Origin: Prevotella sp.
GTDB lineage: Bacteria; Bacteroidota; Bacteroidia; Bacteroidales; Bacteroidaceae
DNA: 50,453 bases
Assembly (NCBI GenBank): GCA_017557405.1
Contig: JAFYYV010000015.1
Location: 1-50,453, forward strand
Direction: 5' to 3'
In this document: positions 5,563 to 48,007 of the stretch, in pieces
Numbering within the stretch: the first letter of the stretch is position 1
Layout of the letters: each line of letters starts with the position of its first letter
Program-made: the position numbers and the translations under genes
Notes under the pieces: generated by a model
Told to the model about the DNA's origin: nothing
The model's input: the letters and a program-made list of their open reading frames with translations, nothing else
Database searches by the model: none

Positions 5563-7737
5563 CTACTTGTTCTGCAAAAGCAGTTGCTCCAAAGCATGAC
5601 GACGGTCCTTCCAAGTCTTGTAATCGTCGGCACGAAGCGTCAGAATCTTGAAGTCAGGACGAGGTCCATTATTATTGTTGTTGTTCTGCATGAACTCCAT
5701 CTTGCTGGTCGTAATCACGCAAGGTTTCGTCTTCTTCTCAGCCACCAACTTGTCGGCAATAGCATCAGCACCACCCACCTTGAACCAACTTTCCATCGTC
5801 TGATCCTTGCCAGGAACGAGTTGGATGAATGTGGGGATGGCTCCACGCTCAGGCATTGGCGACATATACCAAGCCTCCAGACGATTCATGTCGTATCCTG
5901 TCGATCCATGCTCGATGTTGCCCATCGTGGCAAAGCTATAAGTACCGAAAGGATTGGAAGCAACACTCGGTTTGAAGCCATCGCACGGCGAGAGATACAT
6001 GTTGTTCGGGTCGGCCACCTTTGTACCATCGATAAGGAAATAATATTCGAATGTCTCAAGCGCGTTGTCTTTGATGCTCACGCTCCACACGCCTGCCGTA
6101 TCTTTCTCCATAGCGAGAGGTTTGTCGAGCAGTTCGGTTTGCAACAACACCTCTTGTGCTTCAGGAGCCTTGCAACGGAATGTGATGCTCTCACGATCGT
6201 ACTGGGGCGAAACAATTGGCGTTGGGAAGAGACGAGCCATCGTACCAGCCGTGAATTGCTGTTCGTTGCCCGTAGCAGCAGGAGCGGGCTTTCCGTTCTT
6301 CATTGCTTCCTCCGAAGCCTCGGGATTGAAGAGCAGACGCAAAGTCTTGTCGAGGAAATACTTGGCATTCATCCAAGTGTGTCCGAACTTGTCGGTAGTG
6401 AATTCCTTCACAGAGCGGATTCCCTTCTTGTCAAGGAACTCCATATAATCGCGAGCGGTTCCATACAAGAAATCGTCAGTTCCTACACCCAACCAGAAGA
6501 GATGCACCTTCTTGTTGAGCTCCTCGGCATTGTCGTAAACATCGGGGATGTCGGTCGATGTGAACGAGCTATAAGAGCAGAGATAGGAGAACTTGTCGAG
6601 GTTTCTCAATCCGTTCATCAAGCCTTGGTTTCCACCACGCGAGAAGCCGCCAATAGCCCTATGGTCGCGGTCGTTGATCGTGCGGTATTTCTCTTCGATA
6701 TAAGGCATCAGGTCGTTAATCAGGTCGTTGCCGAATACATCGCCACCGAATCCAGCCATTCCACCCATACCAGGCATTCCGCCCATTCCGGGCATACCGC
6801 CTTGTGGCATTCCTTGAGGCATTTGCCCTTGCGGCATTCTTCCTTGACGTTGACCACCTTGACGCATTCCGCCTTGGCCCATACCTTGTGGCATTCCCTG
6901 CCCCATTCCTTGAGGCATACCACCCATACCGGCCATTCCTTGAGGCATTCCGCCCATGCCGGCCATTCCCTCAGCTCCGCCTTGAGTCATTCCTTGAGGA
7001 GGACCACCGGGGAATCTGCCAAAACCTGCACGGCCACCACGACGACCGCCGCCCATTCTGCCGCCCATGCCGAACATGCCACCCATACCAGACGTTGGCA
7101 ACAGCTTGGTGGGATTTCCATAAGGCAACACGACAATCATTTCTTGGGCTGCACCTTGAGCCAACAAGTTGTCGAGGATATAGTTGACACGACCCACCTT
7201 ATAATATACTTCTTCGGTGTCGGTCGTTCCACTAATCAGATAGAATACGGGATATTTGCGATCGCGAGATGCCATATAGCTCGGTGGCAGATAGACTATC
7301 GCATTGTTGGTAGCATGCAAGCTTTCCGAATAATAGTGAATATACTCCACTCTTCCATGCGGCACTCGTTTGATGTCATGAGGCAACTCACCCGTACTAA
7401 TGTCAAGAAGGCTGTTCTTGAAGCCCTCGTTGGGGAAATACTGATCGCACTCAGGGTCCATCACGCTCACTCCATCAACGATGAAGCAATAGGGATACAT
7501 GTCGGGAACGGCAGGACCCACGGTGGCTGTCCAAAGCCCTGTTTTCGCATCGCGTTTCATGGGTTTACGTCCAGCGAACTGCACATCCACCTGCACATCT
7601 TTGGCCTTGTCGTTCTTGTACGTGAACGTCACCGTCCCATCATTGTTGTAGACGGTCGACGGTTGTTGTGCCCAACCTGTCATCGTCCAAAACAAGGCAG
7701 CCAAGCACAATAAACTTGCTTTAAATCCTTTTTTCAT
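5563..7737 (-). CDS. Secreted two-module carbohydrate esterase (enterochelin esterase-like) with Met/Gly/Pro/Gln-rich insert
   Basis: A 724-residue exported alpha/beta-hydrolase. Signal peptide 1-23 is followed by a CBM48/E-set-like beta domain (about 30-115) and an esterase domain (about 130-480) of the type found in acetyl/feruloyl xylan esterases. Likely triad residues are Ser366 in GFSRGG, an Asp in VGTDDF and His453 in FGHTW. A second E-set domain (about 505-610) is followed by only about 100 residues of sequence lacking a GxSxG serine, as if a second esterase unit had decayed. Residues about 214-330 are a low-complexity insert of MGGMPQGM-like words with roughly two dozen Met, placed between the strand EMIVVLPYGNP and the helix NDLINDLMPYIEEKYR. 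The substrate is inferred from the xylan genes nearby. Confidence 0.8.
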   Translation of the reverse strand: MKKGFKASLLCLAALFWTMTGWAQQPSTVYNNDGTVTFTYKNDKAKDVQVDVQFAGRKPMKRDAKTGLWTATVGPAVPDMYPYCFIVDGVSVMDPECDQYFPNEGFKNSLLDISTGELPHDIKRVPHGRVEYIHYYSESLHATNNAIVYLPPSYMASRDRKYPVFYLISGTTDTEEVYYKVGRVNYILDNLLAQGAAQEMIVVLPYGNPTKLLPTSGMGGMFGMGGRMGGGRRGGRAGFGRFPGGPPQGMTQGGAEGMAGMGGMPQGMAGMGGMPQGMGQGMPQGMGQGGMRQGGQRQGRMPQGQMPQGMPQGGMPGMGGMPGMGGMAGFGGDVFGNDLINDLMPYIEEKYRTINDRDHRAIGGFSRGGNQGLMNGLRNLDKFSYLCSYSSFTSTDIPDVYDNAEELNKKVHLFWLGVGTDDFLYGTARDYMEFLDKKGIRSVKEFTTDKFGHTWMNAKYFLDKTLRLLFNPEASEEAMKNGKPAPAATGNEQQFTAGTMARLFPTPIVSPQYDRESITFRCKAPEAQEVLLQTELLDKPLAMEKDTAGVWSVSIKDNALETFEYYFLIDGTKVADPNNMYLSPCDGFKPSVASNPFGTYSFATMGNIEHGSTGYDMNRLEAWYMSPMPERGAIPTFIQLVPGKDQTMESWFKVGGADAIADKLVAEKKTKPCVITTSKMEFMQNNNNNNGPRPDFKILTLRADDYKTWKDRRHALEQLLLQNK
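6745..7095 (-). repeat. Low-complexity Met/Gly/Pro/Gln repeat region inside the esterase
   Basis: In-frame repeats of short words such as GMGGMPQGM and MPQGMGQ encode about 117 residues with almost no acidic or aliphatic residues apart from Met. The DNA repeats GGCATTCC/GCCCAT-type words. It interrupts the hydrolase fold upstream of the nucleophile, most likely as an exposed loop. Confidence 0.8.
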
Positions 7738-7791: not shown

Positions 7792-8131
7792 AGGAATTTA
7801 TCGTCAAGTTGTATTAAATTTAATATTTTTTAAATAACAAACGCTTAATTGTTACTTCAGGGAAACTTTATTTTACCACAAACAAGGGTTTATATTAAAA
7901 AATATGATGAAACAGCAGCAGACACATGCACCCTTAAGGGCCTTGGGCAGCAACGGTTATGTCATAGAAAGAAACATTCGGCCTTTGTCAAATAAAATCT
8001 GAATTTCACCCCCTCAAAACGGGCCACATTTCAAAAAATCTTTTCCTCGCGGGCAAATACGCGAGTTTTGAGCGTTTTCGGAAAACGTTGATAACCAGCA
8101 ACTTCCGTTTTCTTTACATCTTCTTGACTTG

Positions 8132-8263
8132 TCAAAGCTATGCTTTCACCTTGCAAGAGCTATGCTTTGAGCTCGTCAGATGTGGCAAATGACCGCGCTA
8201 GATGATACATTTGAGGGCGTCAAATGCCACATATGAGCCCCTCAGATGCCACATGTGACAATT
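8132..8263. repeat. 22-bp periodic array, six units (locus 2)
   Basis: Units start at 8132, 8154, 8176, 8198, 8220 and 8242, exactly 22 bases apart. They are more diverged than at other loci: central words include GCTATGC, ATGTGGC, ATGATAC and ATGCCAC, but the TCA...TGA-like frame and the 5-base spacers persist. It lies between divergent promoters, in a region with no gene. Confidence 0.8.
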
Positions 8264-8523
8264 TTATGGCACAAATAGCAATGAAAAGAACGGGCGGAAT
8301 GAAAAACTTTTACATTTTCTTTTTCTAGATTACAAGAAAAAGTTGACAAGAATTTGTCATGTTTTTTCAGCGGATCAAAGCGTTTTCCCGCCTATCTTAC
8401 AACTACGTTGTCTTGAACGCCACGAATGCCACATCGCTTCATTTCAAGGGGAAAAACCACCTGAATGATACAATTTGAAACGCAATCGTTACATTTCAAA
8501 CAACACTTTTGCGAACAATATAC

Positions 8524-16629: not shown

Positions 16630-16739
16630 TCAAAGCATGCTTTTAGTTCGGTCAAAGGTATCTTTTGGGCGAACGAAAACTATGCTTTTGAAGCATAAGA
16701 GCTATCCTTTGAGACAACAAAAGGATAGCTCTTATCTCG
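16630..16739. repeat. 22-bp periodic array, five units (locus 3)
   Basis: Units start at 16630, 16652, 16674, 16696 and 16718, exactly 22 bases apart. The last two are inverted relative to each other: 16695-16710 and 16720-16735 form a perfect 16-bp inverted repeat with a 9-base loop. The array lies between convergent genes (sugar porter and GH43) and has no T run after the hairpin. Confidence 0.82.
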
Positions 16740-30609: not shown

Positions 30610-30719
30610 TCAAAGACCACAAATGACATGCTCAAAGCTATGCAATGACACGGTCAAAGCTATGCAATGAGGCGGTCAAAAGCCACAAATGACAAGGTCA
30701 AAGATGGTCTTTGACAATG
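30610..30719. repeat. 22-bp periodic array, five units (locus 4)
   Basis: Units start at 30610, 30632, 30654, 30676 and 30698, exactly 22 bases apart. Cores are TCAAAGACCACAAATGA, twice TCAAAGCTATGCAATGA, TCAAAAGCCACAAATGA and TCAAAGATGGTCTTTGA. The last is nearly a perfect palindrome. Five-base spacers vary. It lies 39 bases before the left arm of the inverted repeat at 30759. Confidence 0.9.
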
Positions 30720-30758
30720 CCACTTGTTCTAAAAAGAACGCGGACATGTGAGCGAACA

Positions 30759-30884
30759 GCGAACGAACGAACAGTTGAACAGTTTCTATTTTTGCGCGAA
30801 CAAAACTTTTATTATTATATAATATAATAATAACCTTCTATTGCAGTTTCACACACAAAACTGTTCAACTGTTCGTTCGTTCGC
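30759..30884. repeat. Concentric inverted repeat: 27-bp arms around a central A/T-only palindrome
   Basis: Arms 30759-30785 and 30858-30884 are perfect reverse complements and are built from GAAC and AGTT words (GAACGAACGAACAGTTGAAC). The loop holds an A/T-only palindrome (30809-30833, 12-bp perfect half-sites around one base) centred at 30821, the midpoint of the whole element. Spacers on either side are 23 and 24 bases. Confidence 0.88.
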
Positions 30885-30931
30885 ATGTAACCATCACACT
30901 TAACAAGGCGAAAACTATTTCTCTGAAATCT

Positions 30932-39983: not shown

Positions 39984-40055
39984 ACAATTTAATTGTTCTG
40001 CATTTTATCTACAAAATACACAAAGTGATGAAAAGTCATTGAAAGGAAGAAAGCG

Positions 40056-40219
40056 AACAGTTCGAACAGATAACAGTTAGTTTCCTGACACCCCTACTTC
40101 TCCATCTATACTCTAATTCCAACTTTATTTATATATATAAATAAAAAATCTTTATACTTAAATACAGGCCTCAATAGTACCCTCAAAAATCGAACTGTTA
40201 TCTGTTCGATTTGTTCGGT
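40056..40219. repeat. Concentric inverted repeat: 25-bp arms around a central A/T-only palindrome
   Basis: Arms 40056-40080 and 40195-40219 are reverse complements with two mismatches (16 innermost bases perfect), built on CGAACAG/TAACAGTT words. A perfect 22-base palindrome of A and T only (40126-40147) is centred at 40136.5, within one base of the midpoint of the arms (40137.5). Spacers are 45 and 47 bases. Confidence 0.85.
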
Positions 40220-40249: not shown

Positions 40250-40359
40250 CCAAAGACCACAAATGGCATTCTCATTTGTGGCTTTTGACCGCCTCAAAGC
40301 TATGCAATGACGTGGTCAAAGACCATCAATGACACGCTCAAAAGCCATCAATGACAAAA
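40250..40359. repeat. 22-bp periodic array, five units (locus 5)
   Basis: Units start at 40250, 40272, 40294, 40316 and 40338, exactly 22 bases apart. The first two are in opposite orientation and can pair (CAAAGACCACAAATG with CATTTGTGGCTTTTG). Other cores include TCAAAGCTATGCAATGA, TCAAAGACCATCAATGA and TCAAAAGCCATCAATGA. Confidence 0.88.
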
Positions 40360-40449: not shown

Positions 40450-40522
40450 TCGGGATTACTGGACTCGAACCAGCGACCTCGCGCCCCCCAGACGTGTGCG
40501 CTACCAACTGCGCTAAATCCCG
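40450..40522 (-). tRNA. tRNA-Pro (anticodon GGG)
   Basis: The minus strand folds into a 73-base cloverleaf. Acceptor CGGGATT pairs with AATCCCG; C1-G72 and A73 are the identity elements of bacterial tRNA-Pro. D arm is GCGC/GCGC, the anticodon loop CTGGGGG gives GGG, and the T arm is GCTGG-TTCGAGT-CCAGT. No CCA is encoded. The anticodon stem CACGT/GCGCG has an A28-C42 mismatch. Promoter and terminator flank it, so it is transcribed alone. Confidence 0.93.
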
Positions 40523-44656: not shown

Positions 44657-47600
44657 TTGCTCTTGCTGCTGATTCTGACAGGATTGGTGGCAGGATGTTC
44701 TACACATAAGAACACCGCCAACAGCCGTTGGTGGCACTCGTTCAATGCCCGTTATAACACGTATTATAACGGCACATTAGCGTATATCGACGGCTCGTTG
44801 GAAAAGGAGAATGGCAATAAGGACAACTTCACGGAAATCCTACCCCTCTACACCGTCGGCAACAAACAAAGCAAGGAGATCGGAAAGGGCAACTTCGACA
44901 AAGCCATAGAGAAATGTCAGAAGGCCATTAAGCTACATAGCATCAAGCAACGACCTGAATGGACAAAGAAACGCCGCAAGACAGAGCGCGATTTGGAATG
45001 GCTGAGCCGCAAGGAGTATAACCCATTCTTGTGGAAGGCGTGGATGCTCATGGGACGCTCGCAATTCCACAAGGGTGCGTTCGACGATGCCGCCTCCACC
45101 TTCTCCTACATGAGTCGCCTCTACCAGACACAACCTGCCATTTATGGTCGTGCTCGCGCCTGGCTTGCCAAATGCTACATCGAGCAAGATTGGATCTATG
45201 ACGCCGAGGATGTGATTCGCAATATGTCGCGCGACTCTATCCACTGGCGGGCGCAAAAAGAATGGAACTACACCTATGCCGACTACTACATCCACACGGG
45301 TGACTACGAAAAGGCAGTTCCCTACCTACGGAGTGTCATCAAACAAGAGATGCGCAAGAAGCAGAAGGCTCGCGAGTATTATTTGTTGGGACAGTTGGAG
45401 GCGCACTTAGGACATAAGGAAGCCGCTTACAAGGCTTTCAAGAAAGTCATCAGTCAGAACCCACCTTACGAGATTGAGTTCAATGCCCGCATCGCGATGA
45501 CCGAGGTGATGGCTGCTGGTCAGTGGAAGCAGATGATTGGAAGGCTGAAGCGAATGGCGATGTCCGACAACAACAAGGATTATCTGGATCAGGTGTACTA
45601 CGCCATCGGAAACATCTACCTTGCCCAACGAGACACCGCGAGTGCCATTGCCAACTACGAGAAAGGCAATGAAAAGGCTACTCGCAACGGCATAGAGAAG
45701 GGTGTGCTGCTGCTGAAACTCGGCGACATCTATTGGCAGAAGGAGAAGTTCAACGACGCCCAGCGCTGCTATGGAGAGGCCATCGGACTGCTCGACAAGG
45801 AACGCGAGGACTACAAGGAACTTTCGCAACGTTCGAAGGTGCTCGACGAGCTAGTACCCTATACCGATGCTGTCTATCTGCAAGACTCGTTGCAAGCGCT
45901 CGCCAAGATGAGCGAGAAAGATCGTAATGCCGCTATTGACCGCGTCATTGAGGCGTTGAAGAAGAAAGAGAAAGAGGAGAAACGAAAGGAAGACGAGGCG
46001 AAGGCTCAACAAACCATGCAACGCAATGGTGCCACTGGAAACCGTGTCAACACCAACCAGCAGACGGCGAACAACAACCAACAGCAAGGTGGAAAATGGT
46101 ACTTCTACAACACATTGGCCATCCAGCAAGGAAAGATTGCGTTTGAGAAACAATGGGGCAAGCGTGAGAATGTGGACAACTGGCGGCGCATCAACAAGAC
46201 CGTCGTAGCAGGATTGGGTGAAGACGGTATGGGCGAACTGACCGAGGAGATGCGCGACTCCATTGCCCGTGCCGAGGCCATTGCCGACTCGTTGGCACAG
46301 GTGACCGACAGTGCCCAGAACGACCCCCACAAGCGTGAATATTATCTGGCTCAGATTCCTTTCACCGAAGATCAAGTGGCATCGAGTAACCTCATCATAC
46401 AAGACGGATTGTTCAACTCGGGTGTCATCTTCAAAGACAAGCTCGACAACCTACCCTTGTCGGAAAAAGCCTTGCGCAGGCTCATTGACAACTTCCCCGA
46501 GTTCGAGCAGATGGCCGACGTATATTACCATTTGTTCCTGCTCTACTCACGTCTGGGACGACCAGACATAGCCGACAGTTATGTGCAAAAATTGAAGGAT
46601 AACTATCCTGACAACCAATGGACCACCATACTGACCGATCCTTATTTCACGGAGAACGCACAGTTTGGCAAGCAGATAGAAGACTCGCTTTATGGAGCCA
46701 CCTACGACGCTTTCAAAGCCGACCGCTTCGGTGAGGTAAGGGGCAACGTCCACATATCTGAGACCCGTTTCCCATTGGGTGCAAACCGCGACAAGTTCAT
46801 CTTCATCAGTGGATTGAGCAAACTCAACGACGGAAATGGCGATGGATGTTTGGCCGACATGAAACTGCTGGTTGAGAAGTTCCCGCAGAGCAAGTTGGCA
46901 GAGATGGCGGGCATGATTGTCAATGGTGTGAAAGAAGGACGCCGCCTGCACGGTGGAAAATTCGACCTGGGTGATGTGTGGAGCCGCCGAAGTGTCGTGT
47001 TGAGCGACAGCGATTCCATTGCCGCACGCCAGTTGTCGCCCGACCCGAATGCCAACTTCATCTTCATGATTGCCTACGAACCCGACTCGGTGGACGAGAA
47101 CAAACTGCTCTTCGAGTTGGCACGCTACAACTTCACGAGCTACATGGTGCGCAACTTCGACATCACCATCGACGATGTCGAGGGACTCAGTCGCATGCAG
47201 GTATCGGGCTTCCGCAATTTCGACGAGGCTCTGCAATACGCTCGCCAGCTCTATCAGCAAGAAAACATCGTGGAGCGGTTGGGGAAGAGTAGGACCATCA
47301 TTGTGAGCGAACAAAACCTGCCGTTGTTGGGTCAGCAATTCAGTTACGAGGACTATCAAGAGTTCTACGACGAGCATTTCGCCCCGTTGAAGATAAGCAC
47401 TGCTCCCCTACTCTCTGAGCCTGCCGAGATTGGCTATGAGAAAGAGCCCGACCTCATCCAACCTTCAAGTGGCGAAGATGAAGAGGAAGAAGGTGAAGAG
47501 GGAACAACCAACGAACCTGAGTCCGACAACTTCTTGATTGAAGACGCCAACAACCAGAAGGCTGTTGAGGAAGACAATAATTTCACGATTGAAGATACTA

Positions 47601-48007
47601 ACACCCAACAGCCGACTCAGCAAGTTGACGACAATAATATCACTATTGAGGATGTTAACACCCAACAGCCAACACCCATCACCCAAGTTGATGACAACAA
47701 CTTCGTGATAGAAGACGACAACAAACAACAAGAAGATAACGACAATAATTTCATCATCGAAGACACGAACACCCAACAGCCAACCAACAACCAGGTTGAC
47801 GACAATAACTTCGTGATAGAAGACGAAGACAAGCAACAGGAGGATGACGACAACATCATCATCGACGATGACTCGCAATCCAATTCCAACAACCAACAAG
47901 AAGACGATGAGGTCATCTCTTTCGACGATGATGACGTTCCACCATCCAACCAAAAGGAGGACGCCACCGAACTCGAAGATGAGTATTTCGACCTTGACGG
48001 CTTCTAA
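44657..48007 (+). CDS. porW: Type IX secretion TPR lipoprotein PorW/SprE
   Basis: A ~1116-residue outer-membrane-type lipoprotein. The lipobox is in LTGLVAGCSTHK. The segment WWHSFNARYNTYYNGTLAYIDG matches the start of PorW/SprE. Several TPR helices run through about 70-420 and 640-900, with a Gln/Asn-rich linker near 450-475. The last ~180 residues are an acidic, degenerate tandem repeat of DNNFxIEDxNTQQPT-like units. PorW/SprE is needed for type IX secretion and gliding in other Bacteroidota; porX follows directly. There is no ATG at the start: 44657 is TTG, which would lose the basic N-region, while an ATT at 44633 gives MKQRKTIKLLLLLILTG, a better lipoprotein signal. The coordinate given is the conservative start. 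Confidence 0.88.
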   Translation: MLLLLILTGLVAGCSTHKNTANSRWWHSFNARYNTYYNGTLAYIDGSLEKENGNKDNFTEILPLYTVGNKQSKEIGKGNFDKAIEKCQKAIKLHSIKQRPEWTKKRRKTERDLEWLSRKEYNPFLWKAWMLMGRSQFHKGAFDDAASTFSYMSRLYQTQPAIYGRARAWLAKCYIEQDWIYDAEDVIRNMSRDSIHWRAQKEWNYTYADYYIHTGDYEKAVPYLRSVIKQEMRKKQKAREYYLLGQLEAHLGHKEAAYKAFKKVISQNPPYEIEFNARIAMTEVMAAGQWKQMIGRLKRMAMSDNNKDYLDQVYYAIGNIYLAQRDTASAIANYEKGNEKATRNGIEKGVLLLKLGDIYWQKEKFNDAQRCYGEAIGLLDKEREDYKELSQRSKVLDELVPYTDAVYLQDSLQALAKMSEKDRNAAIDRVIEALKKKEKEEKRKEDEAKAQQTMQRNGATGNRVNTNQQTANNNQQQGGKWYFYNTLAIQQGKIAFEKQWGKRENVDNWRRINKTVVAGLGEDGMGELTEEMRDSIARAEAIADSLAQVTDSAQNDPHKREYYLAQIPFTEDQVASSNLIIQDGLFNSGVIFKDKLDNLPLSEKALRRLIDNFPEFEQMADVYYHLFLLYSRLGRPDIADSYVQKLKDNYPDNQWTTILTDPYFTENAQFGKQIEDSLYGATYDAFKADRFGEVRGNVHISETRFPLGANRDKFIFISGLSKLNDGNGDGCLADMKLLVEKFPQSKLAEMAGMIVNGVKEGRRLHGGKFDLGDVWSRRSVVLSDSDSIAARQLSPDPNANFIFMIAYEPDSVDENKLLFELARYNFTSYMVRNFDITIDDVEGLSRMQVSGFRNFDEALQYARQLYQQENIVERLGKSRTIIVSEQNLPLLGQQFSYEDYQEFYDEHFAPLKISTAPLLSEPAEIGYEKEPDLIQPSSGEDEEEEGEEGTTNEPESDNFLIEDANNQKAVEEDNNFTIEDTNTQQPTQQVDDNNITIEDVNTQQPTPITQVDDNNFVIEDDNKQQEDNDNNFIIEDTNTQQPTNNQVDDNNFVIEDEDKQQEDDDNIIIDDDSQSNSNNQQEDDEVISFDDDDVPPSNQKEDATELEDEYFDLDGF
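47600..47795 (+). repeat. Heptanucleotide tracts within the acidic C-terminal repeats of porW
   Basis: AACACCCAACAGCC-type words occur at about 47600-47621, 47657-47689 and 47768-47795. Each encodes NTQQPT within a protein repeat of the form NNxxIEDxNTQQPTxQVDD. DNA words match the tract in the GH3 gene. Confidence 0.75.

Follow-up and report, generated by a model that had tools for sequence, protein, structure and literature searches.

Intergenic arrays with a rigid 22-base frame and changing words in Prevotella, a predicted platform for a DNA-binding protein borne by MITE-like elements

We analysed a 50,453-nucleotide stretch of DNA from Prevotella sp. (the window; its genome is designated G000) and found a family of short arrays whose units keep one rigid frame and are filled with words that turn over between species. 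The arrays are dispersed through the genome, lie between genes, and are carried in part by elements that insert like MITEs; their frame is more conserved than its surroundings. We consider each array to be a protein-binding site in double-stranded DNA, spread by MITE-like elements and read by a predicted binder, and we give this reading a probability of about 50%.

To locate the arrays, we applied an array detector to the window and to a 382-kb contig of the same genome (C16). Four arrays were called in the window, all on the plus strand. The first (113-222; exact register 113-217) has five units of 17+5 bases, the first of them worn. The second (8132-8263; exact register 8132-8258) has six units and lies within a larger element, type A. 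The third, a bare array of five units (type B; 30610-30719; exact register 30610-30714), is located between divergent genes for a YfhO-like protein and a phosphorylase superfamily member, and the fourth, also of five units (40250-40359; exact register 40250-40354), has a radical SAM gene and an adjoining tRNA gene (40450-40522) as neighbours. The sequence-only reading had described five arrays in exact 22-base register; these four sites (5, 6, 5 and 5 units) bear that out, and the remaining one, at 16630-16739 on the plus strand with convergent genes on either side, is decayed. Only the first two of its five units start with TCA, and it fell below the detector threshold. Because its syntenic neighbour in genome G563 is a detected array (C1:65113-65305) and its copy in G661 (locus L143) is worn to the same degree, we interpret the site as a decayed array whose right end bears a hairpin. 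The detector called 16 arrays in C16, compared to none when C16 was shuffled in 3-mer blocks (three shuffles) and none when sequences were reversed without complementing. Similarly, the window contained 11 exact matches to TCA-N11-TGA-N5-TCA-N11-TGA, compared to 0 in 100 dinucleotide shuffles.

The window also contains other repeats. Two lie in coding sequence: a 30-base repeat at 6707-6969 (gene 5563-7683) and a 108-base repeat at 47565-47875, near the end of a long ORF (44657-48007). A second family of palindromic inserts occurs at 30757-30886 and 40054-40217 of the window and in the C16 gaps 65011-65654 and 266316-266782, with inverted arms of 24-29 bases that consist partly of short repeated words; the centre of the 30757 copy is AT-rich. 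This second family was present in 4 of 12 gaps with non-type-A arrays in G000 versus 3 of 106 gaps without arrays; the corresponding counts in G563 were 0/12 and 1/59.

To define what is constant in the arrays, we examined their register, edges and spacers. The invariant is the frame TCA-N11-TGA plus a 5-base spacer; the frame TCAAA...TGA proposed from the letters alone was too narrow. Unit-to-unit distances were multiples of 22 in 167/167 cases in G000 and 82/82 in G563, in a scan that was phase-free and took its word list from detected arrays, so the register holds beyond the window's own genome. Among 168 combinations of core and spacer length, 11+5 alone yielded three-unit matches in the sampled sequence, 22 in G000 and 21 in G563, and when all 64 triplets were tried as dyad edges, TCA gave 43 matches and the next best, ATT, gave 3. 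The spacer begins and ends with C or G in most units (first and last base, respectively: 96 and 95% in G000, 99 and 92% in G563), a preference that is looser in G585 (87 and 79%) and G343 (71 and 63%). The units had also been described as quasi-palindromic, which is true of the TCA...TGA edges; otherwise the likeness of the half-sites was not above that of random half-sites in six of seven species, G343 alone exceeding random. A simple homodimer site was rejected on this ground. The number of units per array is small, mostly 4-7.

The family is genome-wide. One unit occurred 215 times at ≤2 mismatches in G000 (3,557,533 bases, 54 contigs), compared to 0 for the reversed pattern. The window and C16, 432,786 bases together, contained 20 detected arrays, which extrapolates to approximately 130-165 arrays in the genome (~164 by length; ~129 by three-unit windows, with 22 exact windows in the sample and 142 in the genome). 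The spacing of 8-14 kb noted earlier applies to the window only, and distances on C16 ranged from 4.6 to 55.7 kb. The claim that arrays always lie between transcription units was upheld: all 26 testable arrays were intergenic (9 divergent, 7 convergent, 10 tandem), counted from 28 arrays in the sampled G000 and G563 stretches after dropping 2 at stretch ends and using protein-gene calls made for this analysis. No gene family recurred among the 212 flanking genes (the largest groups had 3 members), and a gene cassette beside the arrays was therefore rejected.

To assess the spread of the family, we searched other genomes. At family level, a narrow two-unit pattern was found in 1 of 301 genomes, and at genus level in 5 of 398; the general three-unit frame was found in 31 of 398 genus genomes and 2 of 393 in an order-wide draw (in the second, G837, once); the reversed control matched 12 of the 398 genus genomes with up to 30 matches, so single three-unit counts are not proof. 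Thirty of the 31 frame-positive genus genomes were then judged by eye from one or two loci each, with G449 left out. Fourteen carried this array family, two were doubtful (G349, G425) and 14 had plain tandem repeats. One viral contig (L197), the only one found with the two-unit pattern, turned out to be a common tandem repeat built on a different word. The named matching genomes are Prevotella or Prevotellaceae MAGs (RGIG7148, from water buffalo abomasum, and RUG11493).

The sequence-only reading missed that the words differ between species on one frame and that some arrays sit inside an element of ~385 bp. Other Prevotella species have the same frame and spacing with N11 filled by other words, and words are common within a genome and differ between species groups. 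By their words, the 14 genomes fall into the groups (G000, G661, G563, G546), (G343, G381, G577, G469), (G585, G601) and (G389, G445), with G333 and G528 each on its own. At four loci of the G343 word group (L044, L062, L064, L070), a perfect palindrome, AATTCTCTAGAGAATT, adjoins the array. Across 55 gene pairs shared by G000 and G563, arrays were present in both genomes in 5 gaps, in G000 only in 1, in G563 only in 3 (one of them the decayed 16630 site in G000) and in neither in 46. The carrier differed in two of the five shared gaps (30610 and C16:315060), being type B in G000 and type A in G563. In the orthologous bare arrays at C16:365700, unit 4 differs by a whole word (TCAAAGCTATGCAATGA versus TCAAAGACCACAAATGA), which suggests replacement of units rather than point mutation.

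Type A is a dispersed, sharply bounded element of ~385 bp with the array inside, represented in the window at 7985-8369 on the plus strand. Six of the 20 G000 arrays sit in type A elements, and the remainder are bare (e.g., 30610 and C16:225131) or have other flanks. The search for type A gave 50 matches, 47 of which span 363-386 bases; one worn copy (C16:84264) has no detectable array. G563 has at least 36 type A places (query, window 7984-8369; 40 of 260 candidates scored). In the window copy, a left-arm hairpin is located at 8079-8107, and the right end has a terminal hairpin (8345-8368) with a T run after it (both on the plus strand, positions counted by hand). The left-arm hairpin was paired in 86% of cells over 47 aligned copies, compared to 24-52% when slid, and the right-end hairpin in 93%; both-side changes in the left arm (13) were not above the slid controls (5-15). 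Whole type A elements folded better than shuffles on both strands in 14/14 copies (z -2.1 to -7.1). By eye, the TTGTCAA at the left end recurs inverted ~20 bases inside the right end; an end-to-end TIR was not seen in type A.

The insertion pattern of type A was examined next to genes. Orientation to genes was random (15/12/12/11 among the 50 copies with both neighbours, of 54 examined), and elements stay at least 93 bp from gene starts, whereas the shortest distance to a gene end is 12 bp. No copies split around a gene were noticed among the type A places listed. A search for target duplication in 43 type A copies gave none in 40 and 2 bases in 3, compared to 34 with none, 6 with 2 bases and 3 with 3 bases for shuffled partners. 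Some MITE parents make no target site duplication. Type A is also a short, non-coding, dispersed element with sharp ends and many copies, as MITEs are, and because its orientation is random and it lacks a target duplication, it behaves as a MITE-like insert. One type A copy (L130) had no match in phage or plasmid collections, and a phage or plasmid origin was rejected on that basis. The copies L155 and L054 (G563 and G546) share an identical 25-base left flank and a nearly identical right flank, which would fit either an old shared insertion or a transfer between species. With profiles built from the arms only, one or both arms were matched on the side where they were expected in 7 of 8 G343 loci, 1 of 2 G601 loci and the one locus each of G381, G577 and G469; E-values were often weak (best 1.5e-5, several above 0.01), and reversed sequence also gave one match. 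The 12 G585 loci gave nothing consistent, nor did those of G333, G528, G389, G445, G349 and G425.

To compare the frame with its surroundings, we used 51 type A copies. Likeness among G563 copies was 94% in the frame, 71% in the arms and 70% in the interiors, and between G000 and G563 it was 88, 62 and 53%. In two orthologous pairs, the frame agreed at 80 and 93% and the interior at 51 and 45%. Over 18 orthologous units at 3 loci, a set that omits the decayed 16630 array and gaps with different carriers, 94 of 108 frame letters agreed versus 124 of 198 interior letters (Fisher P = 5e-6). In all these figures, frame conservation is inflated because the frame was used to find arrays and to choose unit columns. 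Interior positions 5 and 8 were also well conserved (1.54 and 1.46 bits). Interiors were more alike among G563 paralogues (0.70) than in the two orthologous pairs (0.51 and 0.45), a likeness that recent copying of the element alone could give.

To determine whether the arrays are selected as folded strands or as duplex, we compared real arrays with versions in which units were randomly flipped. Real arrays folded worse than flipped ones in G000 (mean z +1.18, n = 25), G563 (+0.56, n = 38), G585 (+0.76, n = 12) and G661 (+0.70, n = 8). Flipping made no difference in G343 (z +0.16, n = 6), where order-shuffled arrays folded less well than real ones (z -0.94), a result that fits structure. The units of an array thus tend to share one orientation. 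In most species there is no sign of selection for an array-level hairpin, and it is apparently the duplex, not a folded single strand, that selection acts on. Hairpin arrays were rejected for G000, G563, G585 and G661, and kept as a possibility for G343.

These observations are best explained by a platform for a DNA-binding protein. Each array would offer double-stranded DNA to a sequence-specific, probably dimeric, putative protein that contacts the fixed TCA and TGA edges together with the mostly G/C first and last spacer bases. The idea that a protein reads one helical face every 22 bp came from the sequence-only reading, and it is still the most likely reading, with binding as such a prediction from sequence. 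One contact per 22 bp, or about two helical turns, would set five or six protein copies on one face and allow joint binding. Reading of the N11 interior may fall to a region of the putative protein that evolves faster, or to several related proteins, so that protein and words would co-evolve, and we propose that words are for this reason common within a genome and different between groups. On this reading, the arrays have spread through intergenic DNA in two forms, within the small, non-autonomous type A elements and as bare type B copies of five units, and the putative binding may benefit either the element, by aiding its mobility or maintenance, or the host, by organising the chromosome. The 22-base register, the frame conservation, the flip controls, the other words on the same frame and the paralogue interiors favour binding. 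Against it stand the failure to find a binder or a recurring neighbour gene family, the unlike half-sites, the conserved interior positions 5 and 8, the G343 fold and the folding of type A on both strands. If a protein does read the arrays, an abundant gut and rumen genus has a sequence-specific, chromosome-wide binding system, and its natural recognition-word variants across species would make co-evolution between a protein and dispersed sites directly testable. More speculatively, and with the odds clearly against it, the arrays may be a code of constant frame and changing words, in which a fast-evolving putative DNA-binding protein co-evolves with more than 100 arrays phased at 22 bp genome-wide. 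Every Prevotella lineage would then fill the invariant TCA-N11-TGA frame with words of its own. Such a system would be the bacterial counterpart of satellite or centromere co-evolution, and it might organise the nucleoid in a lineage-specific way.

The arrays may instead be a selfish minisatellite in MITE-like elements with no binder of its own, in which copying, slippage and gene conversion hold unit length and edges. We regard this as possible though unlikely. The sharp ends, ~385-bp length, random orientation and distance from gene starts of type A all suit it, as do the variable presence of arrays between G000 and G563 and the leader-array-tail plan shared with BrickBuilt of Porphyromonas gingivalis (PMC4596501). 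Slippage leaves unexplained that edges stay while interiors fall to 45-53% between species, that the same edges hold other words elsewhere and that unit number remains small. If no protein reads the arrays, they are a MITE-borne minisatellite with a rigid frame whose content turns over. Transcription terminators, insulators or stop-codon traps we consider highly improbable. Because the period is not a multiple of 3, the TGA/TCA edges do place a stop in every one of the six frames; the right end of type A resembles an intrinsic terminator, and the 30610 array has a terminator-like match on the minus strand that overlaps its last unit (one match against 0.3 expected). However, six-frame stops require neither 22-base rigidity nor a fixed 17+5 split, and terminators were rejected by gene context, 9 of 26 arrays lying between divergent genes, and by the random orientation of type A.

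That the arrays are REP-like elements which an HUH (Y1) transposase processes in single-stranded form appears improbable. A candidate is the RAYT-like protein P0001, encoded at C16:297880-298914 of G000, which resembles NCBIfam REP_Tyr_transpos (43.4 bits, under the cut-off of 80) and Pfam Y1_Tnp (23.4 bits, cut-off 23). The type A hairpins, the folding of type A on both strands and the lack of a target duplication, as single-stranded DNA transposition would give, agree with such processing. With Pfam Y1_Tnp as the query, a single gene was recovered from G000 and nothing from G563, G661 or G694 (the source of L023; it matches G563 in contigs and places), whereas a direct protein search found P0001 relatives in G563 and G661. 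These relatives occurred in 223 of 398 genus genomes versus 12 of 16 array genomes and so do not track the arrays; none of 18 fetched loci had a detected array within ~1.5 kb, and P0001 itself has only a sub-threshold array-like stretch ~950 bp away. These findings, together with the better folding of flipped units in four of the five species tested and left-arm changes within the slid-control range, argue against the REP-like account, and RAYT/REP was rejected. The stretch near P0001 (C16:296828-296932) is worn and lies at the end of a gene labelled HU-like from a reading of its protein sequence. Upstream of four RAYT-like loci (C16:297880-298914, L228, L238 and L240), inverted repeats of short words of the CTTACAGT, GTCACAAA and TGTGCAAA types were seen by eye. 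By analogy with the atypical REP structures of Bacteroidetes subclass 2.6 described in PMC6006769, they are possibly these genes' own atypical REP structures.

The arrays were compared with known repeat families. The sequence-only reading knew of no named family of this kind, and our searches agreed: no published description was found in open-licence literature, and Rfam covariance models at gathering threshold returned only the tRNA at 40450-40522 from the window and loci L130, L022 and L062. Like CRISPR arrays, the Prevotella arrays have regular repeats and short spacers, but the spacers are 5 bases, dozens of loci occur in the sampled stretches and no neighbour family recurs. Neisserial dRS3/NIME repeats also form intergenic arrays of short dyads in which the ends are conserved and the centre varies, and their sequence and spacing differ from those described here. 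REP/BIME sequences with RAYT (TnpAREP; PMC6006769, PMC3733652) are likewise high-copy, species-specific, intergenic, clustered short repeats, and a divergent RAYT-like gene is present in G000. In contrast, the commonest Prevotella units, by reading, lack a GTAG/GTGG-footed hairpin and keep an exact 22-bp register, and two defining features, a repeat-flanked RAYT gene and a selected hairpin unit, were absent (0/18 loci; array fold not favoured in four of five species). Nearest in kind is the BrickBuilt MITE/minisatellite of P. gingivalis (PMC4596501), which has near-equal unit length, dispersed intergenic elements in Bacteroidales, and a leader and tail flanking the array, with some arrays lacking both. 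BrickBuilt has a 23-nt unit of other consensus, 1 to 22.8 units with indels and TIRs resembling IS5-family ISPg elements, and it is described for a single species, whereas the Prevotella arrays have a 22-bp frame, changing words, mostly 4-7 units, no recognised TIR and several host species. The BrickBuilt TIR pattern matched once in the window at 1 mismatch (0.3 expected); the 23-nt brick consensus had 0 matches there at ≤3 mismatches, and identity with BrickBuilt was rejected. The arrays are a variant of the minisatellite-in-MITE kind, unusual in their constant frame and changing words.
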